Part shown: positions 8,404-48,033 of the stretch, piece after piece
Numbering within the stretch: position 1 is the stretch's first letter
Layout of the letters: each line of letters opens with the position of its first letter
Assembly: GCA_945881865.1 (NCBI GenBank)
Contig: CAMCVK010000001.1
Span: forward strand, 434,001 to 498,000
Direction: 5' to 3'
From: Fimbriimonas ginsengisoli Gsoil 348
GTDB taxonomy: Bacteria; Armatimonadota; Fimbriimonadia; Fimbriimonadales; Fimbriimonadaceae
DNA: 64,000 nt
Made by a program: the position numbers and the translations under genes
Notes under the pieces: model-generated
Seen by the model: the letters and a program-made list of their open reading frames with translations, nothing else
What the model was told of the DNA's origin: nothing
Database searches by the model: none

Positions 8404-10725
8404 ATGAACCAGACGAAGATTATTGCTTTGCTTTTTGCCCTCTCGGCTTCTGCCGCGGGAGTGACCCAAACCGCGACCGCGTGGTCGAACCCCGCCACGT
8501 GGGGCGGCCAAGTGCCGCGCATTGGCGACAAGGTCTTCATTCCGAAAGGAAAGAACGTCGTGCTCGACGTGGCGACGGCGGGCCTGCGAGGACTTACCAT
8601 CGAGGGGACCCTCTCGACTTCGCCGAACAAGAACGTTGCGATCACTTCCGACTTCATCGTCGTGAAGGGCGGCAAGTTACAGATCGGCACGGCCGCCGCG
8701 CCGCACCTGGGGCGAGCCACAATCACCCTGACTGGAAACACCACCTGGAACCTGCCGGAGACCTTTGCAATGGGCTCCAAGGTCCTCGGCGTTGTTGGCG
8801 GTTCGCTCGAAATTTTCGGCGCGCCCGTCAAAAAGAACTGGACGAAGCTTGCCGCCGACGTGAAGCCAGGCGCAACCGCGATCAAGCTGGCCGAAGCCCC
8901 GGGCTGGCGCGTAGGCGACCAAATCGTTCTCGCGACGTCGACCCGAAAAATGGGCGAGTACGACCTGGCGACAATTTCCGCCATCAATGGAGTCGACGTC
9001 ACGCTCAAGGCACCGCTTAAGTACAAGCATCTTGGCGCCGCGCGAAGTGTCGCCGGCCAGCGGTTGGATGTCCGTGCTGAGGTCGGACTCCTTTCGCACA
9101 ACGTCGTGATCCAGGGCGATACGCAGTCCACTTCGCTCAAGATCGGTGGCCACGCGATGTTTATGCGCGGCGGCAACATGATGTCTGGCCCGGCACCGAC
9201 CATCCAGATCTCGCATGCCGAGTTCCGCCGCATGGGCCAGCTCAACGTCGTCGGCCGATACCCGATCCACTTCCACCTGCTTGGCAAAACGAAGGATTGC
9301 TTCGTTAAGAATACGAGCGTGCGCGATACCATCCAGCGCGGAATTGTTTTGCACGACGTGGAAAATGTGAGCCTTACCGGGAACGTGGTGTTCAATACGA
9401 TAGGCCACAACATCGTCGTGGAGACTCCCGAAACGAGGTCAAACGTGCTCGATGGCAACCTTGCACTCGTGAACCGTCCGGCGACCCCGCTGCAAACGGA
9501 GTCTGTCTTCGTGGAGCAGGCCGACCGACTGCCCTCGAACTTCTGGCTGCGTTCCGCCAATAACCTGGTTACGAACAATCATTCGGCCGGGAGCTTCGAT
9601 AGCGGATTCAACTTCGATCGCTTGATCGACGATGCTCCCTTTCGTTTCAGCAAGAACACCGCCCACGCGTCGATGGGCCTGGAAAGTGCCGGAGCCGGTG
9701 ACTTTGACCTCGCCGCCGGCATGCTGTTCGTGACCGAGGCCAACCGGCCAAGCAACGACGACATTTCAGACAACCTTGTCTATCACAACTCCATCGGAAT
9801 GTGGCCCGAGGAAGCCGGTCCGTTCATCATCAACCGCATGCTCGCGGTGGACAACGACCTGCACACCGAGAACCGCGGCGTCGGAAACGCGGTTACCTAC
9901 CGAAACAGCCTGTTTGTTGGCAAACTGACGGAACCCCGCGAGTATGCCGGGGCGGCCGCGCACTTCCAATACGGATCCGACGTCAAGCTCGAGAGCCCGA
10001 CTTTTGCGGGTTACGCCAACTCCGGCTTTGCGTCCTTCACCGACATCGCTCTTCCGACGCAAGGGAACCTATGGGTTTCCAATCCAAAGTTTGTCGGTCC
10101 GAAGCCGTGGCCGTCGATCGGCGACGACCAAGTCACGACCTATCTCGACGACGCCTTCCTGCCGCGCGGAACCTACGTCTATGCACCGGAATACGCGCTC
10201 CCGGGTGCGAGCCGAGTCTTTATCGGCGCCGGGGACGAAGGGACCGATATCTTCCGAATGGCGGCGCGACCGGACTACGCCGAGGTGGACGTCCGCAATA
10301 TGGCGTCGCCTGGAACGCCCATTCACCAGACCCAACCAATCCGCCGCCAGGACGGCCTTACCTACGCTTCCGGCATGTTTGGCTACACAGCGATTTTGGG
10401 TGCGGACATTCGCTACGAAGTGCCGGTGGTGGCACCGAAGGGCTACGCGCTACGAATCAACAATAACTCGACGTTTGCGGCACCGGGCGAACAGGCTGCG
10501 GCACGAGTTGAAGTCGCGGTCAAGGTTGCGGGACTCCCTAGAGGCGTCTATCGCACGGACGACAACTACGAACTCCCGGGCAAGCCAACCACGGCCGGAA
10601 AGCTGCGCGCGGCCACCAGCCGCGCGGATTTCCTCGCGAACCCAGAGACGACGTTCCTCTGGGATGCGGCCAAGAAGACGGTCACGACATTCGCCGCCCG
10701 GCGCTGGGTCGTCATCGTTCCGTAA
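8404..10725 (+). CDS. Secreted G8-domain, right-handed beta-helix protein
   Basis: A 773-residue exported protein. After a signal peptide (about 1-20, ending near SASA) comes a G8 domain (about 24-140: WSNPATWGGQVPRIGD, then VVLDVATAGLRGLTIEGTL). A long region of parallel beta-helix repeats follows (about 150-560), with HLLGKTKDCFVKNTSVRDT and GIVLHDVENVSLTGNVVFNT-like coils. In animals this architecture occurs in CEMIP/TMEM2 hyaluronan-degrading proteins; bacterial members are poorly characterised. A GAGGAGA Shine-Dalgarno lies 7 nt before ATG 8404. A polysaccharide substrate is an inference only. Confidence 0.8.
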   Translation: MNQTKIIALLFALSASAAGVTQTATAWSNPATWGGQVPRIGDKVFIPKGKNVVLDVATAGLRGLTIEGTLSTSPNKNVAITSDFIVVKGGKLQIGTAAAPHLGRATITLTGNTTWNLPETFAMGSKVLGVVGGSLEIFGAPVKKNWTKLAADVKPGATAIKLAEAPGWRVGDQIVLATSTRKMGEYDLATISAINGVDVTLKAPLKYKHLGAARSVAGQRLDVRAEVGLLSHNVVIQGDTQSTSLKIGGHAMFMRGGNMMSGPAPTIQISHAEFRRMGQLNVVGRYPIHFHLLGKTKDCFVKNTSVRDTIQRGIVLHDVENVSLTGNVVFNTIGHNIVVETPETRSNVLDGNLALVNRPATPLQTESVFVEQADRLPSNFWLRSANNLVTNNHSAGSFDSGFNFDRLIDDAPFRFSKNTAHASMGLESAGAGDFDLAAGMLFVTEANRPSNDDISDNLVYHNSIGMWPEEAGPFIINRMLAVDNDLHTENRGVGNAVTYRNSLFVGKLTEPREYAGAAAHFQYGSDVKLESPTFAGYANSGFASFTDIALPTQGNLWVSNPKFVGPKPWPSIGDDQVTTYLDDAFLPRGTYVYAPEYALPGASRVFIGAGDEGTDIFRMAARPDYAEVDVRNMASPGTPIHQTQPIRRQDGLTYASGMFGYTAILGADIRYEVPVVAPKGYALRINNNSTFAAPGEQAAARVEVAVKVAGLPRGVYRTDDNYELPGKPTTAGKLRAATSRADFLANPETTFLWDAAKKTVTTFAARRWVVIVP

Positions 10726-22190: not shown

Positions 22191-23312
22191 ATGCGAAAAT
22201 CGACACAAATTGCGATTGGCTTCCTAGTGATCACTTTCGGTGGCTACAAGGCCTACGAGGTTGTCACCGACCAGATGGTCATGAACGAGAAGTTCTCGAC
22301 GCTTCGACCGGGTGACGTAAACATCGTCGGAATAGACGCTGGAGCTGGTTATCGCATCATCACGGCGAACTACATGGCGCAGTTGGTCGAGGCCAGCTCG
22401 GACTTCCAAGGCAAGGAGACCGACGGCGGCGGCGCGACGGAAGGCGCGATCAAGCGCCGCGTGCCGGTGCGCGAACTTCTGCAAACCTTGCAGGGCAACG
22501 GCAAAGCATTGGGTGCTTTCGTGATGACCCTGAACGAAATGAACGAGAACGACACGTGGCCACCAATCCGCGTGGTCTGGAAGGCGGCGGACCTTGAGAA
22601 AGCGATCAAGGGCGACGCCGTTCTGAAAAAGAAGCTGGAGGCCGACCTGAACATGGGTCTGGACGGAATGCCGCTGCCCCGCCTCGACATCAGCGCGATG
22701 GAGAACGGGATCATTATCGAGACGCCGGTGACGGTTACCGTGAACGTGGATAACAAAGAGCAAAAGGTCATCGGCCAGGTGCAAGAACCGTACAAGCCCC
22801 GGATGATTCGCGCGGTGGAAGAGGCCTATAAGGAGAAAGGAAACGTTACGACCGAAATGCAGGTCGGCTACTACAAGCTGGAATCCGAAAAGCTGATCGC
22901 GAACCCCGCCCAACGGGAAATCATCTCGGAGTCCATCACCCAGCGCATCTCTCCGACCCTTGCGGTGGATCGAGCCAAAAACCCAGAGCGGGTTTTAAAG
23001 AGTGCCACGGTTGTGGTGAGTGATTCCTTCATCACCGGAGCGACCTCGCGTAGCTACACCGGTAACGACGGCAAGCCGTACTTCGACATGACCATTCGAT
23101 TGACCGACGAAGGCCGCCGACGCCTGTGGCAATACTCGAAAAAGCGGGTTGGAACGCAACTTTTGATTACGGCGGCGGGCATTCCCGTCTCCGCCCCGCG
23201 AATCCAACACGAATTGGCGCAAAATGAGTTGACGATTTCGCAGTTGCAAGATGAGCGCCTCGTAAAAGACGCGGTGGACGCCATTAACCAGCGGGCGGCG
23301 GCAAAGCCATGA
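22191..23312 (+). CDS. Membrane-anchored SecD P1-head-like protein
   Basis: A 373-residue protein with one N-terminal transmembrane or signal helix (about 7-26) and a periplasmic body. The C-terminal third (about 265-365) resembles the SecDF P1 head: FITGATSRSYTGNDGKPYFDMTIRLTDEG, then TQLLITAAGIPVSAPRIQ and NELTISQLQD, like the SecD ITGA, G...FDMT and SAP-I motifs. No transporter (RND) helices follow, so it cannot act as SecD itself. It begins a five-gene operon that ends with rodA, and the next gene overlaps its stop (ATGA). Confidence 0.65.
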   Translation: MRKSTQIAIGFLVITFGGYKAYEVVTDQMVMNEKFSTLRPGDVNIVGIDAGAGYRIITANYMAQLVEASSDFQGKETDGGGATEGAIKRRVPVRELLQTLQGNGKALGAFVMTLNEMNENDTWPPIRVVWKAADLEKAIKGDAVLKKKLEADLNMGLDGMPLPRLDISAMENGIIIETPVTVTVNVDNKEQKVIGQVQEPYKPRMIRAVEEAYKEKGNVTTEMQVGYYKLESEKLIANPAQREIISESITQRISPTLAVDRAKNPERVLKSATVVVSDSFITGATSRSYTGNDGKPYFDMTIRLTDEGRRRLWQYSKKRVGTQLLITAAGIPVSAPRIQHELAQNELTISQLQDERLVKDAVDAINQRAAAKP

Positions 23313-24049
23313 ACCGAGACATTATTTTTAAGATTTCTTCGCCTCTTGCCGGAACCACCCTGGCGATTCTTGCGGCAGGCATGCTCACGGCATGCGGCCC
23401 AAGCGGATATAAGCCAAAGCTCGCCGCCGAAGCGCCCGTCGTAAAGCTTGAGGACGCAACCCCGGAGAACCTGTTCCCCTTTAAGGACGGCTATGAGTGG
23501 GAGTACAACTTTACGTCCACCACCCGAACCGCAAACAACACGGTTCCGGAGTCGGGCCGGCTAAGAATCAAGGTTGTCCGCGTCGAAGGTACACCGAAGG
23601 GTAAGAAAGCCGAGCTCCAGGTCGAGCGAGAGGGCGTTGTCGTCGACAAGCAGATTTGGCTTTCCAACGAAAAAGGGATTTACCAGCTTGCCGCCGGTGA
23701 AAAGACTAGCGTTCCGTACAGCCCGATGCAGCCATTCGCGCTTTTCCCCCTGTCGGCAAACATGAAGTTCGATTGGAAAGGAAAAGGCGCGACGCCGCTT
23801 GGCATGCCCGGAACCATCAAGACGACCAACATCGTGCGTGGTCCCGAGCCGGTTGACACCGGAATCGGTCGTCGAACCGGAATCGCGATCGAAAGCCGAA
23901 CCGAGTTCACCTCGGCGAAGATTGTCGGTGCCTTCGTGGTAACGACTTGGTACCAGCCCAGCGTAGGCATTATTCGGATGAAGCAAGTTCTTGCGGTGCC
24001 AACCGGAGCCGTAACCACGACCCTCACCCTTGCCAAAGCTCCCATCTAA
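23309..24049 (+). CDS. Lipoprotein, hypothetical (operon copy 1)
   Basis: A 246-residue predicted outer-surface or periplasmic lipoprotein. The signal ends in the lipobox LTAC (Cys about 29). The mature part is beta-rich; an FKDGYEWEYNFTSTT segment matches in style the GSTWESSTTV and GETWKWNGVL segments of the next two lipoproteins, so the three may share one fold. I do not recognise a functional family. It is coupled by ATGA to the SecD-head gene and by TAATG to the next lipoprotein. Confidence 0.78.
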   Translation: MNRDIIFKISSPLAGTTLAILAAGMLTACGPSGYKPKLAAEAPVVKLEDATPENLFPFKDGYEWEYNFTSTTRTANNTVPESGRLRIKVVRVEGTPKGKKAELQVEREGVVVDKQIWLSNEKGIYQLAAGEKTSVPYSPMQPFALFPLSANMKFDWKGKGATPLGMPGTIKTTNIVRGPEPVDTGIGRRTGIAIESRTEFTSAKIVGAFVVTTWYQPSVGIIRMKQVLAVPTGAVTTTLTLAKAPI

Positions 24050-24828
24050 TGAACTCAATGAAATCTTTGCGAACCTTACTCGGCTTGGCGATGGTCGCCT
24101 CATTTGCGCTCGGATGTTCCGGAAACACGGTCACGCCCGTAAAGACCAGCGGCGATGTCACTAAGGGTGAGCCCGCTCCCGGTAAGGATGCGGTTGCCAG
24201 CGAGAAAACAACCGAAGAAGCGCCGGTCGCCACCAGCAATCCCGGCGAACTGCCCGGCGACTTGAAGAACGAGGCGTATGCCTATTACGGGCTCGGCATG
24301 ACGAAGCCGCTCGTGATGGAAGTCACAAGCTCGAACCAATCGGGAATTCAGACCGGAACCCAGGAATCCAAGCTAGTTTCGGTCGAAGACGGGAAAGCGA
24401 CCTACGAGATCGAGCGCACTGGGAACTTGGGCGACCTTCTCGGCGGCATGACCGTGACGCTGGAGCGCGACGGCATCTACGTCAAGTCTTCCACCATCGC
24501 GAAGGTCGGCAAGCGCGACCTTGAGCTACCGAACAACCTCGCACCGGGCTCGACCTGGGAGAGTTCGACGACGGTCGATCAGCCCGGAAAGCAGCTCAAC
24601 GTGGTGAACAGCTTCAAAGTCGTCGGAGTTCAGCCGCTAAAGACGAAGGTCGGTAACTACCAGGCACTCCTCATCACCTCGAGTGGTTCGGGAACGGTGA
24701 ACGGCCAGAACGTGAAGATGCAAACGAAGAGCTGGTACGTAAAGGATCGGGGGGCGGTAAAGGCCGTGCTCTCGACCACGAACGGCTCCGGGCAAACCAG
24801 CTCGGTCACCGTCGAAGAATCGAAGTAG
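24049..24828 (+). CDS. Lipoprotein, hypothetical (operon copy 2)
   Basis: A 259-residue lipoprotein with the lipobox ALGC after a short signal helix. A Lys/Glu/Pro/Ala-rich linker (about 25-70) leads to a beta-rich domain with GSTWESSTTVDQPGK and TKSWYVKDRGAVKA segments. Start ATG 24049 overlaps the upstream TAA. The Trp and terminal strand pattern (WYVKDRGAVK) resembles YQPSVGIIRM in copy 1 and WLVEGHGVVRR in copy 3. The function is unknown; the operon ends with rodA, which hints at an envelope role. Confidence 0.78.
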   Translation: MNSMKSLRTLLGLAMVASFALGCSGNTVTPVKTSGDVTKGEPAPGKDAVASEKTTEEAPVATSNPGELPGDLKNEAYAYYGLGMTKPLVMEVTSSNQSGIQTGTQESKLVSVEDGKATYEIERTGNLGDLLGGMTVTLERDGIYVKSSTIAKVGKRDLELPNNLAPGSTWESSTTVDQPGKQLNVVNSFKVVGVQPLKTKVGNYQALLITSSGSGTVNGQNVKMQTKSWYVKDRGAVKAVLSTTNGSGQTSSVTVEESK

Positions 24829-24843
24829 GTCCCGAGGACACCG

Positions 24844-25482
24844 TTGAGCCGCCTGCACCCACGCCGATTGGTTACGGGCCGATTGGTTCCGGCGGTTCTC
24901 GCCGTTTGCCTCTCCATCTACGGTTGCCAGCCTCCGGCCGCCGTGGATGGAACCAAGGTCTCGGATTTCGCAGCGTTTAGCACTGCAGCCGTTCCGCCCC
25001 AAAACGCCACCCTTAAGGTCGCCGGCGTCCGCATCGACACCGTCATGAAGACGCGCCGAGACGATGGCCGCATCATCCTGGATTTGGTTTCGAACAGCGA
25101 AGTGATCGACCACGAGACGTACCACGAAGACAACGGCGGGCTCTCGCTAGAATACGCGGCAGGCGAAACATTCTCCCCGGTCATTCCGCTCGTTCGGCTC
25201 CCAATGCGTGTTGGGGAAACATGGAAGTGGAACGGGGTCCTCAAGAACGACGGTGGAGACCAGCCCGCGACGGCCGAAATTCGTACGGAGGCGGCGAAGA
25301 TCGACACCGGCGGGGACCTGAACCACGGCTTAGAAGTGGTGGTTTTGCTCGACTTGAAGCAACCAAACGGATCGGAAAACGTCCGCCGGAAACTGCATTT
25401 TTGGCTCGTCGAGGGCCACGGAGTCGTTCGGCGGAGCTTCGGCGATGAGTCTCAACGGGAACCGGCCGGAGGTATTCGCTAG
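24844..25482 (+). CDS. Lipoprotein, hypothetical (operon copy 3)
   Basis: A 212-residue protein starting at TTG 24844, 15 nt after copy 2, with a GAGGAC Shine-Dalgarno-like sequence. The signal has a basic start and a lipobox-like IYGC (Cys about 28). The beta-rich body contains GETWKWNGVLKND and LHFWLVEGHGVVRR. It appears to be a diverged paralogue of the two upstream lipoproteins. Its 3' end overlaps the rodA start by 38 bp. Confidence 0.72.
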   Translation: MSRLHPRRLVTGRLVPAVLAVCLSIYGCQPPAAVDGTKVSDFAAFSTAAVPPQNATLKVAGVRIDTVMKTRRDDGRIILDLVSNSEVIDHETYHEDNGGLSLEYAAGETFSPVIPLVRLPMRVGETWKWNGVLKNDGGDQPATAEIRTEAAKIDTGGDLNHGLEVVVLLDLKQPNGSENVRRKLHFWLVEGHGVVRRSFGDESQREPAGGIR

Positions 25483-26632
25483 CGTGGCCAGCCTGAGCAA
25501 CCCGATAGGATCGCGGCCGCAATCCGCGCGGGCGCTTCAAGGCTTCGATTTTGCCTTGTTCATGTCAGCCCTTGTCCTGGTGGTTTTTGGCCTGATGGCC
25601 ATTTACAGCGAAGCGAGTGGCCGCCAGGACCCAAAGAATTTCGAGCGTCAGCTCGTCAACACCATGATCGGCTTGGTGCCGGGGCTGGTGATGTACTTCG
25701 TCAACCCCAAGTTTTGGCAGCGGGTTTCCTGGGCACTGTACGGCATCATGGTGTCGCTGCTGCTGGTCACCCTCTTCATCGGAAAAGAGATCAAAGGCTC
25801 GCAACGCTGGATCGACGTCGGGCCGCTCCAGTTCCAACCCAGCGAGGCGGCCAAACTACTTTGCATTCTCACGATGGCTTCGTTTTTCGCAAACCGGGAG
25901 CTAGACATCAAGAAGCCGCTCTTGTTCCTGCTGGGGCTTCTGCACATCGCCTTGCCCATGTTCCTCACGTTCAAACAGCCGCACCTCGGCGCGACGATGG
26001 TGCTGTTCGTTGCCTGGCTAGCCATTTCGTTTGTCGCCGGGACGCCACTGAAGTTCTACGGGATCCTGTTTGCCGGTCTGCTTGCGGTGGGAATCGTCGC
26101 CTGGAAGGTGCCGGCGGTGAAGGACAAGCTCTTCCAGGGCTACCAGCTGGAGCGGGTTCAGGGCCTCCTCAGCAAAAAGAAAGACCGTCGCGGCGACAAC
26201 TACCAGACGGACCGCGCGGAGATTGCCTTCGGGGTTGGCGGAGTTACTGGCACAGGCTATAACCGCGGCGTTCAGAAGGCGAAGGGGTTCGTGCCCGAGC
26301 AAAGAAACGACTTTATTTTCACCGTCGTCGGCGAGGAGGGTGGGCTGGTCGGATGCTCGGTCGTGCTGGCAGCCTTCGCTTTCTTCTTCTATCGAATCTT
26401 CCTCGTGATGACCGACGCCGAGGACATCTACTTTAGGATGATGGCCGCCGGGGTGTTCGCGATTCTCGGCTTCCAGATGTTCGTAAACCTAGGGATGCTG
26501 CTGCAAATCGTGCCCGTGGTGGGCCTGTGGTTGCCGTTTATGAGCTCCGGAGGCACCGCCATTTGGCTATGCCTCGGCTGCGTCGGATTGCTTCTGAGCA
26601 TCCGTCAGCGCGAGCGGCGAATCCTTTACTGA
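25445..26632 (+). CDS. rodA: Peptidoglycan glycosyltransferase RodA/FtsW family
   Basis: A 395-residue SEDS protein that polymerises lipid II outside the membrane during elongation. About ten transmembrane helices are visible. Family motifs include GSQRWIDVGPLQFQPSEAAKL, FKQPHLGATMV, NDFIFTVVGEEGG and the C-terminal PFMSSGGTA. RodA rather than FtsW is favoured by QPSE/KQPHLG and the absence of division-cluster neighbours, but this is not decisive. It is the last gene of the 22191-26632 operon; the gene beyond it is convergent, 18 nt away. Confidence 0.9.
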   Translation: MSLNGNRPEVFASVASLSNPIGSRPQSARALQGFDFALFMSALVLVVFGLMAIYSEASGRQDPKNFERQLVNTMIGLVPGLVMYFVNPKFWQRVSWALYGIMVSLLLVTLFIGKEIKGSQRWIDVGPLQFQPSEAAKLLCILTMASFFANRELDIKKPLLFLLGLLHIALPMFLTFKQPHLGATMVLFVAWLAISFVAGTPLKFYGILFAGLLAVGIVAWKVPAVKDKLFQGYQLERVQGLLSKKKDRRGDNYQTDRAEIAFGVGGVTGTGYNRGVQKAKGFVPEQRNDFIFTVVGEEGGLVGCSVVLAAFAFFFYRIFLVMTDAEDIYFRMMAAGVFAILGFQMFVNLGMLLQIVPVVGLWLPFMSSGGTAIWLCLGCVGLLLSIRQRERRILY

Positions 26633-26649: not shown

Positions 26650-27429
26650 TCAAGGCTTCCAGCGGAGCAAGCCGCTCTTGGTTTCCGCCTGGGAAAGAGC
26701 CCTCACTTGGCCGTCGGTGAAGGCGACAACCGTCTTGCCGTCGGTAAAGGTGAGCTTCTCCCTGGAACCCTCGTACAGCAGGACCGTCTTGGCCGGCTCG
26801 GCGATATCCGCCGAATTCTTTCCGGTGAGGCGATCATTGAAGGCGAACGGCTTGCCGGTTGTTCTGGAAAAGAAGACTTTAATATTCTTCACGTAAGGCT
26901 GAATCGCTGCCCGCAGTGTCGCGCTGGTCAGGCTATATTTGTTCGCGTTGTCCGATAGGTAGAGATTGATTCCGACTGCCACCACCTTGGCATTCGAAAG
27001 CGTCTCGGTGGTCCGGCTGGCCCGCTCCGCCCGGTCGAAGACGCCTCCCTGGGTGACAGAAACGCCCAGCGTTTCAAAGAACTTTTCGCTTGAGACCAAC
27101 TTCTTTGACGCAACGATCCGCCACCGCCCGGAAGACCGCACCACCTGCACCGTCTCTTCCTGAGGCTTCCCCGATTCTTTGACTTGCACGACGATTCGGC
27201 CCGAGTTACCGGATACCTTTAAGGAGATCACTTTCATCGAGAACTTGACCTCCGGCTGAATCCGCTTCATCACGGCCACCTCTTCGGAAATCACCTTGCC
27301 CCCAACGTACTGCGCGGCGATCTTTGCGTAATTTCGCTCGTTCAGGCCAGCGATCACGTTCTGGAGCGGTGTCACCGCCGGGGAATTAGACTGCAATAAG
27401 AGCAGGGCCGAGATCGCGCCAGTAAGCAT
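26650..27429 (-). CDS. Secreted pseudopilin-head-like protein, paralogue 1 of 3
   Basis: A 259-residue exported protein. A signal peptide (about 1-18) is followed by an NTF2-like or similar first domain (VIAGLNERNYAKIAAQYVGGKV) and a second region with a SNAKVVAVGINLYLSDNANKYS helix and a C-terminal VVAFTDGQVR. That helix and the F-DG end are hallmarks of DUF1559/type II pseudopilin heads (SN-x-K...D and F-x-DG), but here without the N-terminal methylated helix. An AAGGA Shine-Dalgarno precedes the ATG. It is the last of three tandem paralogues and has no copy of the shared upstream palindrome. The function is unknown. Confidence 0.78.
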   Translation of the reverse strand: MLTGAISALLLLQSNSPAVTPLQNVIAGLNERNYAKIAAQYVGGKVISEEVAVMKRIQPEVKFSMKVISLKVSGNSGRIVVQVKESGKPQEETVQVVRSSGRWRIVASKKLVSSEKFFETLGVSVTQGGVFDRAERASRTTETLSNAKVVAVGINLYLSDNANKYSLTSATLRAAIQPYVKNIKVFFSRTTGKPFAFNDRLTGKNSADIAEPAKTVLLYEGSREKLTFTDGKTVVAFTDGQVRALSQAETKSGLLRWKP

Positions 27430-27476
27430 CAGTTCCTTCTTTTTCTATTCACGAACAGCCCGCTACGGAGAGCCGG

Positions 27477-28256
27477 TCAAGGCTTCCAGCGGAGCCCGAC
27501 CGACTTCACCGTCTCCGGGGTCAGCAACCGCACATGGCCGTCCGTGAAGGCAACAACCGTCTTGCCGTCCGTAAACGTGAATCGCTCGTTCGAACCTTCA
27601 TACAGCAGAACGGTCTTCGCGGGTAGCGCAATGTCGACCGCCTTCGTCCCGGTCAGCCGCTTGTTGAAGGTGAATGGCTTGCCCGTTCCTTTGGAGAGCA
27701 AAATCTTTTCGTTCTTCAGGTACGGCAGAACGGCTCCGCTCAGATCGTCGGCCGCGAACGAGAACTTATCGTTGTGATCGCCCAGATAGAGCATCACCGC
27801 GAGTGCCGTCTGCTTTGCGTTCGACATCGTCGCGGTATTCGTGCTGGCGGTTCTAGCCTGCTTGAAGAGGCCGCCTTTTGTCACAGAAACTCCCAAGGAG
27901 TCGAAAAGACTCTGGGGAGCCGGCGTCTTCTTCAACGGAACAATTTTCCAAGTCCCCGAATCGCGCACGACGTTCACCATCTCGGACTGTTCCATGCCGG
28001 TCGCCTTTAGCCTAGCCGTCACCTTGCCGGAGTTTCCGCTCACCTGCACGGAGGTCACGGTGATCGAGAATCTGTACTCTCTCGGAAGATTCGCAAAAGC
28101 GGCTGCCTCGGAAGGGATCACCTTTCCCCCAACGTACTGCGCCGCGATCTTGGCAAATTTTCGCTCGTTCAATCCGGCAATCACGTTCTTAAGCGGTAGC
28201 GCCGCCGGGGAGTTGGATTGCAACAACAGAAGGGCCGAAATCGCCGTAATGAGCAT
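27477..28256 (-). CDS. Secreted pseudopilin-head-like protein, paralogue 2 of 3
   Basis: Also 259 residues when started at ATG 28256, which aligns with the starts of the other two (MLITAISALLLL against MLTGAIS and MLTTAIS) and follows a GATAGGAACG Shine-Dalgarno; the Met at 28268 is less likely. It is the most diverged of the three, with SNAKQTALAVMLYLGDHNDKFS and VVAFTDGHVRLLT, the latter closest to real DUF1559 heads. The palindromic element at 28292-28308 lies 36 bp upstream. Confidence 0.78.
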   Translation of the reverse strand: MLITAISALLLLQSNSPAALPLKNVIAGLNERKFAKIAAQYVGGKVIPSEAAAFANLPREYRFSITVTSVQVSGNSGKVTARLKATGMEQSEMVNVVRDSGTWKIVPLKKTPAPQSLFDSLGVSVTKGGLFKQARTASTNTATMSNAKQTALAVMLYLGDHNDKFSFAADDLSGAVLPYLKNEKILLSKGTGKPFTFNKRLTGTKAVDIALPAKTVLLYEGSNERFTFTDGKTVVAFTDGHVRLLTPETVKSVGLRWKP

Positions 28257-28291
28257 CGTTCCTATCATCTTCCATCCGCTCCCGCGGGTGG

Positions 28292-28308
28292 GTCAAACGT
28301 CCCGTTTG
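28292..28308 (-). promoter_or_regulatory. Palindromic promoter element, copy 1
   Basis: GTCAAACGTCCCGTTTG on the plus strand contains CAAACG-TCC-CGTTTG. On the minus strand its edge forms a -35-like TTGACC. The identical 17-mer lies upstream of paralogue 3 at the same distance (36 bp from ATG). Confidence 0.6.
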
Positions 28309-28319
28309 CGGGGTTCGTT

Positions 28320-29099
28320 TCAGGGCTTCCAACGCAGTGCGCTGCTCTTGACTTCGGCCGGGGTGAGCGTCCGCACTTGGCCGTCCGTAAAGGCGACCAC
28401 CGTCTTACCGTCAGTAAAAGTGAGCTTCTCCTTGGAACCTTCGTAAAGCAAAACCGTCTTGGCCGGGTCGGCGACGTCCACCAAGTTCTTTTCGGTGAGG
28501 CGATTGTTAAACGTGAACGGTCTGCCGGTCGTCCTCGAAAAGAAGACTTTTACATTCTTTACGTAGGGCAAGATCGCTACCCGAATCGTGGCGGCGGTCA
28601 AACTATATTTGTTGGCGTTATCCGATAGGTACAAATTGATTCCGACTGCCACCACCTTGGCGTTCGAAAGCGTGTCCGAAAGTCTTTTCGCTCTTTTTCC
28701 CTGGTCGAAGACGCCGCCCCTGGTGACGGAAACCCCGAACATTTCAAACAGTTTCTGGTTTGGTGCCAGATCCCTTGCCGGAACAATCTGCCATTGCCCG
28801 GAAGATCTCACGACGTTCACCGTCTCTTGCTCAGGTTTCCCTGCTTGTTTGAGTTGAACGATAATCCGGCCCGCGTTCCCCGATAGCTTTACAGAGATCA
28901 CCTTCATGGAGTACTTGACCTCCGGCCCAAGCCGCCTCATCAAGTCCGCCTCTTCGGGAATCAACTTGCCGCCAACGAACTGCGCGGCGATCTTGGCGTA
29001 ATTTCGCTCGTTGAACCCCGCAATCACGTTCCTTAATGGCAAGACCGCCGGGGAATCGGACTGCAGCAAGATCAGAGCCGAAATCGCCGTAGTGAGCAT
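28320..29099 (-). CDS. Secreted pseudopilin-head-like protein, paralogue 3 of 3
   Basis: 259 residues, closest to paralogue 1: the last 250 bp of the two genes are nearly the same at DNA level, so the duplication is recent or homogenised. It has the same order of parts: signal peptide, VIAGFNERNYAKIAAQFVGGK domain, SNAKVVAVGINLYLSDNANKYS helix and VVAFTDGQVRTL end. AGGAAG precedes ATG 29099. It is the first gene of the tandem set and is divergent from the TrpG-type gene. Confidence 0.78.
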   Translation of the reverse strand: MLTTAISALILLQSDSPAVLPLRNVIAGFNERNYAKIAAQFVGGKLIPEEADLMRRLGPEVKYSMKVISVKLSGNAGRIIVQLKQAGKPEQETVNVVRSSGQWQIVPARDLAPNQKLFEMFGVSVTRGGVFDQGKRAKRLSDTLSNAKVVAVGINLYLSDNANKYSLTAATIRVAILPYVKNVKVFFSRTTGRPFTFNNRLTEKNLVDVADPAKTVLLYEGSKEKLTFTDGKTVVAFTDGQVRTLTPAEVKSSALRWKP

Positions 29100-29134: not shown

Positions 29135-29151
29135 GTCAAACGTCCCGTTTG
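29135..29151 (-). promoter_or_regulatory. Palindromic promoter element, copy 2
   Basis: Same 17-mer as at 28292-28308, 36 bp upstream of the ATG of paralogue 3. On the minus strand the edge gives a TTGACA -35-like hexamer, so a bound protein could compete with RNA polymerase. Confidence 0.6.
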
Positions 29152-29183: not shown

Positions 29184-29777
29184 ATGATCCTCGTCATCGA
29201 CAACTACGATTCCTTCACCTACAACCTGGTGCAGTACTTGGGGATGACGGGCGAACAGATCGAAGTCCGCCGGAACGACGAGATTGACGTTGACGGAATC
29301 AAGGCCCTCCGGCCCCAGGGCATCATGCTCTCGCCCGGGCCGTGCACCCCGAACGAATCCGGCATCTGCATCGACGTCCTCCGGTGGGCGCTAAGCCCGG
29401 ACTACGACGGAACGCCGGTATTTGGAGTGTGCCTCGGGCACCAGGCCATCGGGCTGGTGGCCGGAGGAGTCGTTCGCCAGGCACCGAACATCATGCACGG
29501 CAAGGCTTCTCCCGTAGAGCACGATGGCAAAGGCCTGTTCGCGGGCATGCCGAACCCATTTCGGGCGATTCGGTACCACTCGTTGGTCGTGACGCACGAC
29601 GGAGTTCCCCCCGGGTTCATCGTGACGGCGGAAAGCCTGGACGACCACGAGATCATGGGGCTTCGGCACGAAACACGCCCGATCGAAGGCGTGCAGTTTC
29701 ATCCGGAGTCGGTGCTCACCGAAGATGGTTTCCGAATCATCGAGAACTTCGTCGGCATGGTTCGGGCGGCGGTTTGA
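29184..29777 (+). CDS. Anthranilate/aminodeoxychorismate synthase glutamine amidotransferase
   Basis: A 197-residue class I glutamine amidotransferase of the TrpG/PabA family, which delivers ammonia for anthranilate or 4-amino-4-deoxychorismate synthesis. Motifs are DNYDSFTYNLVQYLG, LSPGPCTP, the nucleophile in VFGVCLGHQAIG, MHGK and FHPESVLTEDG with the His-Glu pair. No TrpE/PabB partner is in the window. The thymidine phosphorylase gene starts inside its stop (TTGA), which is an unusual partner for this family. Confidence 0.92.
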   Translation: MILVIDNYDSFTYNLVQYLGMTGEQIEVRRNDEIDVDGIKALRPQGIMLSPGPCTPNESGICIDVLRWALSPDYDGTPVFGVCLGHQAIGLVAGGVVRQAPNIMHGKASPVEHDGKGLFAGMPNPFRAIRYHSLVVTHDGVPPGFIVTAESLDDHEIMGLRHETRPIEGVQFHPESVLTEDGFRIIENFVGMVRAAV

Positions 29778-47106: not shown

Positions 47107-48033
47107 TTATCGGGTGAAGTAGCAGGCAGCGGTCGGGGTGGCAGGGCACGGAGTGGTGATGTTCTGAACGATCCACTGTGCGTACTCGCCACATCGGATG
47201 TCGCCCGGCTCAGGCGTCGTGTTCAGCTGCGAGGTCGTACCGTCCTCGTTCGGAATGGTTGCATCCGGATCGGAGCAGTAAGCCGTTCGTCCGAGACCAG
47301 CGGTGTCGGCAACCACGATGTATCGGTTGTTGAAAGCACCCGGAAGGATGCCGCCCTTAACCTTGATCGCCTTGGCGTGGCCGTCAGCGAAAGCGTAGTT
47401 GAACGATCCGCCGTAGCGAAGTCCTTCGTTGGTCAGACCGTTGTAGGTGTCGGCAGCAAAGCCGATTCCGATCGTTGCACGCGGCGTGTCGTACGTGTCG
47501 CCGAACGCGAACGTGCCAGCCGGCTCGCTGATGCTCGTCATCGACTTACCAGCGTTGATGTTGCCGTTGCCGCCGGTCGGTCGGACGTAAACGACCTGCT
47601 TCTCAAGCAGTCCGCCGCCGCGCCAGCCGAACGGGCCCCAGTTGTAGCCGTAAGCCGAAAGCTTCTTGGCTCCGAAGACGCCGCCTCGGACGCTGTGGTT
47701 GTCGGCTTCGTTTCGCTCGTCCGAGTAGATGAGGTCGATCGACTTGAAGTAGGGGAACAAGGAGTACCACCACTCGGTCGAGCAACCCTCGATGACCTTG
47801 GCTGCCGGGTTGCAGACCGTCGGGTTGTTCGTGCCGAAGATCGGCGGGGTTACGTCTTCGTTGTCGCCGACGTAGATCTGGAGGCTGGTGCCGAGCTGCT
47901 TCACGTTGGAAAGCGACTTGACCTTCTTGGCTGCAAGCTTAGCTTGAGCGAAAACGGGGAAAAGGATAGCGGCCAGAATGGCGATGATGGCGATAACCAC
48001 CAACAACTCGATAAGGGTAAAGGCTTTCTTCAT
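47107..48033 (-). CDS. Prepilin-like protein, N-terminal cleavage/methylation domain, DUF1559-type
   Basis: A 308-residue type IV pilin/type II pseudopilin-like protein. The N-terminus MKKAFTLIELLVVIAIIAILAAILFP is the class III signal; prepilin peptidase would cut before Phe5. The -1 residue is Ala rather than the usual Gly. The head has SNVKQLGTSLQIYVGDNEDV and the C-terminal FNYAFADGHAKAIKVKGG (the F-x-DG mark), then a Cys-containing tail. Glu9 (the +5 position) is present. A direct repeat (48072-48090) lies upstream, and a small lipoprotein follows. Confidence 0.92.
   Translation of the reverse strand: MKKAFTLIELLVVIAIIAILAAILFPVFAQAKLAAKKVKSLSNVKQLGTSLQIYVGDNEDVTPPIFGTNNPTVCNPAAKVIEGCSTEWWYSLFPYFKSIDLIYSDERNEADNHSVRGGVFGAKKLSAYGYNWGPFGWRGGGLLEKQVVYVRPTGGNGNINAGKSMTSISEPAGTFAFGDTYDTPRATIGIGFAADTYNGLTNEGLRYGGSFNYAFADGHAKAIKVKGGILPGAFNNRYIVVADTAGLGRTAYCSDPDATIPNEDGTTSQLNTTPEPGDIRCGEYAQWIVQNITTPCPATPTAACYFTR

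Follow-up and report, generated by a model that had tools for sequence, protein, structure and literature searches.

Three tandem genes of Fimbriimonas ginsengisoli Gsoil 348 encode proteins whose C-terminal domain is homologous to the heads of DUF1559/H-X9-DG pseudopilins. The domain retains both alpha1-C, which is the distal half of the pilin helix, and the alpha/beta head. We infer with moderate confidence that the trio are non-polymerising exported binding proteins. They lie in a 64,000-nucleotide window, the whole stretch of DNA analyzed here, which corresponds to C1:434001-498000 of their own 3.23-Mb genome (G000). Below, G-numbers denote Armatimonadota genomes and L-numbers denote loci from such genomes.

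The gene trio and its export signal

All three genes are on the minus strand: copy 3 (28320-29099), which comes first in the direction of transcription, copy 2 (27477-28256), and copy 1 (26650-27429). Each encodes 259 amino acids plus a stop, with the same architecture of a signal peptide, an NTF2-like domain, and a helix-less pseudopilin head. The ORFs are spaced by approximately 50–65 nt and the products align without gaps, which bears out the three tandem 259-codon paralogues described in a first-pass annotation of this DNA. An alternative in-frame ATG of copy 2 at 28268, four codons upstream, would give 263 amino acids. S145-N146-A-K148, D160, PY.KN, and VVAFTDG are common to all three copies, and the alignment thus agrees with the SNAK...D and VVAFTDG motifs reported in that annotation. 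When their own genome was searched with the trio sequences, these were the only full-length copies found.

Copies 1 and 3 had been described as nearly identical over long stretches of DNA, but this did not hold: they share 78% nucleotide and 74% amino acid identity, the third codon position is just 66% identical, and the longest identical run is 27 nt. Near-identical recent duplicates are ruled out by these values. Copy 2 is more distant from copies 1 and 3 (approximately 64% nucleotide and 58–59% amino acid identity). The dN/dS ratio between copies 1 and 3 (NG86) is approximately 0.21 overall, 0.15 in the head, and 0.34 in the N-terminal domain. All three copies are under purifying selection and are old enough to have diverged. 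The possibility that they are decaying pilin genes without a 5' end, captured behind another exported domain and persisting as non-functional remnants, would fit the loss in the trio of the histidine and cysteines found in many other heads. It is very improbable given dN/dS values of approximately 0.15–0.34 between copies 1 and 3, three intact ORFs of equal length, and the presence of intact NTF2-head proteins elsewhere in the phylum, in other families; pseudogene status is ruled out by the dN/dS ratios together with the intact reading frames.

The first 18 residues of each protein (29046-29099 in copy 3, 28203-28256 and 27376-27429 in the others, minus strand) are hydrophobic, with a plausible signal-peptidase site (SPA) at the end. 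The signal peptide claimed at first pass therefore stands as a hydrophobic N-terminus, but it is a weak one of Sec type, without a charged n-region (MLTTAISALILLQSDSPA) and with a hydropathy maximum of 2.5 over 9 residues. Clearer signals are found in homologues: L023 has a standard export signal, MKTRLLLPLLSLTALSHGQ, and L061, with a GTG start, has the lipobox-like sequence VKLSLLIALIGLIATGC and resembles a lipoprotein. The trio are likely exported from the cytoplasm via Sec and likely released as soluble periplasmic or secreted proteins.

The pseudopilin head and the NTF2-like domain

The AF2 model of the whole of copy 3 has a mean pLDDT of 86. In this model, residues 130-160 (28620-28712, minus strand) form one long helix; a small alpha/beta domain containing VVAFTDG comes next, and the residues before 130 form the NTF2 domain and a linker. 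The long helix corresponds to the distal half (alpha1-C) of the pilin helix and carries the pattern VF..A..A......LSNAK. The entire pseudopilin head of DUF1559/H-X9-DG type spans residues 113-259 of copy 3 (28320-28763, minus strand; equivalents 27477-27920 and 26650-27093).

The genome search with the trio also matched true prepilins, with alignments starting at residue 130, the expected end of the membrane half of a pilin helix. The VF..A..A......LSNAK pattern lines up with VFAQAKLAAKKVKSLSNVKQ and is collinear with VFAQAK...LSNVKQ of the protein encoded at 47107-48033 (minus strand), which has the same head behind a leader and membrane helix (FTLIELLVVIAIIAILAAILFPVFAQAK). The first-pass annotation had named this protein a true prepilin, and its matches to N_methyl (E 3e-7) and TIGR02532 (E 1e-7) confirm it. 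A profile built exclusively from NTF2-head proteins matched the same prepilin with an E-value of 2.6e-11 in four collinear segments and, apart from the trio, matched no other ORF of the window at E<=10. The family profile also matches prepilins of the own genome. Among 13 NTF2-head proteins, PF07596 (DUF1559) matched four at E<=1 (best 4.6e-6) and TIGR04294 (H-X9-DG) matched three (best 1.1e-4).

A structural comparison with the DUF1559 head had been suggested at first pass, with a predicted fold unlike that of pseudopilin heads named as the refuting outcome; this outcome did not occur. The head predicted alone (pLDDT 88.8, pTM 0.80) gave, as its top six VIA-align matches, 9iuf (Z 5.4), 3s0t (5.0), 3vor, 9a1f, and 8uhf (4.8 each), and 3hrv (4.7). 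Each of these is a type IV pilin or, in one case, a T2SS pseudopilin; the next match, an unrelated one, had a Z of 3.0. Taken alone, Z scores of 4.7–5.4 are modest. Foldseek with the isolated head also placed these pilins at the top, although its E-values were weak (best 0.28), and the fold argument is accordingly built on rank, the gap in VIA-align scores, and the sequence profiles. Since the prepilin matches from residue 130, the NTF2-head-only profile, the DUF1559/H-X9-DG matches in relatives, and the fold of the head alone agree, the C-terminal domain is homologous to these pseudopilin heads, and the earlier proposal of a pilin-type head in a soluble-type exported protein is supported. That the resemblance is a chance motif match in a domain unrelated to pilin heads would be consistent with the absence of any Pfam or NCBIfam match in the C-terminal half of the trio, including PF07596 at E<=10 (gathering score 23.3 bits). 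This explanation is refuted by the prepilin matches in the genome, the matches in relatives, and the profile and fold evidence, leaving it a negligible probability; the NTF2-head-only profile match and the pilin structural neighbours by themselves rule out chance motif resemblance.

The closest known proteins are the DUF1559/SBP_bac_10 (PF07596) and H-X9-DG (TIGR04294) pseudopilins of Planctomycetota and Armatimonadota, whose C-terminal domain is the same as that of the trio. Shared features include the distal helix with (C)LSN.KQ...Y..D, PY.KN, P..T.L.YE, and V.F.DGH, and the PF07596 model likewise begins after the membrane helix, at a VFAQAK-like sequence. Standard members have a leader and membrane helix and no NTF2 domain, whereas the trio show the reverse; the trio also lack both cysteines and the histidine, and taken alone they fall below the reporting limits of both models.

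The missing parts are those used for filament assembly. In type IV filaments, subunits are held together mainly by packing of the N-terminal helix half (alpha1-N), and the leader is needed for processing by prepilin peptidase. The trio have no prepilin leader, no N-methylation motif of the GFTLIE type, and no membrane half of the helix; beyond residue 20, hydropathy over 19 residues peaks at only 1.1, and a hydrophobic alpha1-N is absent. They match neither N_methyl nor IV_pilin, while the prepilin at 47107-48033 matches both. The earlier description of a head without the pilin helix is therefore correct for the leader and membrane half but not for the distal half (alpha1-C, approximately 130-160), which is retained. 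Because the leader and alpha1-N are missing, the trio would not be processed or packed like pilins and, we infer, are unable to join a pilus in the usual way.

Several head residues are also changed. The histidine of H-X9-DG is T229 in all three copies, with D239-G240 kept; both head cysteines are absent; and DGH has become DGQ in copies 1 and 3 but is kept in copy 2. The H-X9-DG motif occurs in 11 of 26 NTF2-type heads. Among 134 heads, 65 have both of the paired cysteines, 61 have none, and only 8 have one, which suggests a conserved disulfide that is lost as a pair and is kept in many non-pilin heads. If the lost histidine, cysteine, and DGH residues bind a ligand, the trio may not bind it. 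The C-terminal LRWKP sequence is common to many NTF2-head relatives.

The N-terminal domain (residues 19-112 of copy 3, 28764-29045; equivalents 27921-28202 and 27094-27375, all minus strand) shows an NTF2/cystatin-like fold, with helices on a curved antiparallel sheet, according to the AF2 model, Foldseek, and VIA-align. Foldseek with the whole protein returned NTF2 folds only. The best VIA-align match is the NTF2 domain of RsgI9 (7sjy; Z 10.2, 99 residues, rmsd 2.8). RsgI9 is an anti-sigma factor of C. thermocellum whose S1C-NTF2 ectodomain is extracytoplasmic; it has no pilin head, and the trio are not membrane anti-sigma factors. Matches of the trio to curated families (Lumazine_bd_2, DUF3828, and Rv0361_Cterm) were weak and below the Pfam/NCBIfam thresholds. 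The N-terminal domain of relatives matched Rv0361_Cterm (E 2.6e-8), DUF4440 (5.9e-4), and MecA_N (0.012), and profile matches linked the domain to the NTF2 domains of PBP2a/PBP5. A search of the own genome found no stand-alone NTF2 paralogue; the next match had an E-value of 0.38.

Distribution and other architectures of the head

The first-pass annotation had called the fusion unusual and proposed a search in other Armatimonadota. Unusual it is for pilins, but comparison of sequences indicates that it is recurrent across the phylum, in several families and often in tandem. Full-length NTF2-head proteins were found in approximately nine other genomes of the same order and also in families outside it (G139-G142, G155, G156, G211, and G115). 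Tandem copies number four in G022 and three in G045; one of the four at L053:5006-9557 (G022) has a strongly degenerate head (8712-9557). Named relatives from a 6-row alignment and a scan of the collection comprise seven Armatimonadota MAG loci, from Fimbriimonadaceae, Fimbriimonas, and Chthonomonas MAGs. The head itself is far more widespread, with matches at E<=1e-10 in 267 of 291 Armatimonadota genomes. In the own genome, a head profile gave 64 matches at E<=0.01, approximately 58 of them prepilins, with leaders judged on stretches retrieved from the genome, by pattern and, in a few cases, by eye. The remaining six are the trio, a GYF-like-TM-head protein (C1:304775), and two TM proteins.

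Among 129 distinct head-bearing ORFs, a sample biased towards the query, there were 28 NTF2 proteins, 11 prepilins, and 90 others. Pfam domains joined with heads include zinc ribbons, GYF_2, DUF4190, DUF3352, M48, M56, and a Nuc_deoxyrib_tr-like domain. At seven loci (L085, L087, L089, L090, L113, L117, and L118), zf-HC2-TM-head-DUF4349 genes lie directly downstream of genes with Sigma70 r2 and r4_2 domains, and the ORFs abut or overlap. This is the layout of an ECF sigma/anti-sigma pair, and by sequence the proteins are anti-sigma-like; the DUF1559 head in them is probably the outside part of transmembrane regulators. Similarly, proteins with M56/BlaR1-like domains and a head are encoded directly downstream of Penicillinase_R (BlaI-type) genes (L018:334-2280, L105:2336-4009, and L106:1424-3079), and L018 has an NTF2-head, i.e., the architecture of the trio, following its peptidase part. 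Here too, the head should be on the extracytoplasmic side. The regulator-linked heads are only distantly related to those of the trio. As the same head recurs in these and other non-pilus proteins, it appears to be reused in the phylum as a general binding or sensing part outside the cell.

L040 and L004 keep the end of the pilin membrane helix (AAILFPV.. and SAILLPVF..) behind a different N-terminus, and such proteins look like intermediates between a prepilin and a soluble head, with the change presumably running from the former to the latter. The findings as a whole trace how a domain of a filament subunit may leave the filament step by step. A tree of the heads (134 columns, 134 rows) is mostly unresolved. 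With four architecture classes, a minimum of 28 label changes is needed, compared with 63.6 in shuffles; the NTF2 label changes eight times, at least three of them forced by starred branches. The architectures thus reassort, although they also cluster by kinship. Two tandem pilin heads stand behind one membrane helix in L092 and L102. At L128:2482-3453 (minus strand), a nucleoside deoxyribosyltransferase-like N-terminal domain precedes a DUF1559 head, and no membrane helix is evident in between, which makes the localisation puzzling.

DUF1559 prepilins are known to be hugely expanded, with 91 proteins carrying both domains in Tuwongella (PMC8567305), 68 paralogues in another report (PMC10632474), and 74 genes in Rhodopirellula (PMC2754498). 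Few protein families of Planctomycetota are as strongly expanded (68–91 or more genes per genome in these reports), and DUF1559 pseudopilins are numerous in Armatimonadota as well. Three Sec/SPI plus SBP_bac_10 proteins without N_methyl have been mentioned in Tuwongella immobilis, two of them in all cell fractions (PMC8567305), and N_methyl was reported for 65 of the 79 PulG-like genes of F. ginsengisoli (PMC4072686); the absence of the helix from a DUF1559 protein is therefore not new in itself. The Tuwongella proteins resemble the trio by description in having the DUF1559 domain behind an ordinary signal peptide, but they belong to another phylum, and the one sentence that mentions them describes no accessory domain. 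Modular type IV pilins such as Streptococcus sanguinis PilB (PMC8179133), as presented there, also combine a pilin module with a functional module; these are genuine pilins, whereas the pilin module of the trio lacks the assembly half and is C-terminal to the other domain. In the literature searched, whose coverage was incomplete, we found no description of NTF2, anti-sigma, or M56 fusions of the head.

Candidate function and local gene context

Exported binding proteins are the simplest reading of the trio because of the signal peptide, the pocket-type NTF2 domain, and the use of the head elsewhere as the outside part of regulators. The proteins would leave the cytoplasm through Sec and be soluble in the periplasm or secreted, with entry into a pilus by the normal route barred by the missing leader and packing helix. 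The head would act as an extracytoplasmic recognition module for a ligand or protein partner, as its regulator-linked relatives suggest, and the NTF2-like domain may supply a pocket or dimer interface. The three diverged paralogues could then form a small group of binding proteins that differ in specificity.

The main alternative, to which we give a low probability, is that the trio are pilus or T2SS accessories whose head docks on a real pilin or pseudopilin head as a cap, adaptor, or competitor, with the NTF2-like domain as the cargo or ligand part. In its favour, approximately 58 prepilins with the same head are present in the own genome, the F. ginsengisoli genome has been reported to encode PilB, C, D, Q, and M besides the PulG-like genes (PMC4072686), and alpha1-C, which lines pilin-pilin contacts, is kept in the trio. 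However, the alpha1-N packing that is the main hold in assembled filaments is absent, and unrelated regulators carry the head as well. Ten neighbourhoods of secreted NTF2-head homologues, examined by eye, showed no conserved gene order, no conserved linkage to regulator genes, and no recognisable linkage to pil/gsp genes; since these neighbourhoods vary, they connect the trio with no specific regulator or pilus.

It is also improbable that the trio are secreted NTF2-like enzymes or pocket binders for which the pilin head is a mere structural or surface-attachment appendage. NTF2-like folds do include enzymes and pocket binders, and W102 is invariant in the family alignment. Against this, the head is the better conserved half by dN/dS, nearly all conserved family columns are in the head, and no catalytic residue pattern was found.

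Beyond the reading of the trio as exported binding proteins, we tentatively propose that the DUF1559/H-X9-DG head serves generally to recognise ligands outside the cytoplasm, and that Armatimonadota have detached it from pili and reused it in soluble exported proteins and membrane regulators (ECF anti-sigma and BlaR1-like). If this is true, the dozens of DUF1559 prepilins per genome would be ligand receptors on filaments as well as structural subunits. Compared with a pilin, a soluble two-domain protein that lacks the membrane helix should be much simpler to express, crystallise, and test for ligands, and the anti-sigma and BlaR1-like fusions make the recognition target of the head directly testable with reporter genes.

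On one side of the trio is an FtsW/RodA-like gene (25445-26632) in convergent orientation, and on the other a glutamine amidotransferase-like gene (29184-29777) in divergent orientation, both named from reading the sequence alone. Just before the former, three consecutive plus-strand ORFs at 23309-25482 have lipoprotein-like N-termini (LTACG, FALGCS, and SIYGCQ) and are possibly another tandem set of exported proteins. A perfect 15-bp palindrome, CAAACGTCCCGTTTG, is missing upstream of copy 1 and is present at 28294-28308 and 29137-29151, at equal distances upstream of copies 2 and 3, where it may be an operator or a duplication remnant. One further genome match, to CAAACGNNNCGTTTG, is at C10:43073, and there are only three exact copies genome-wide.
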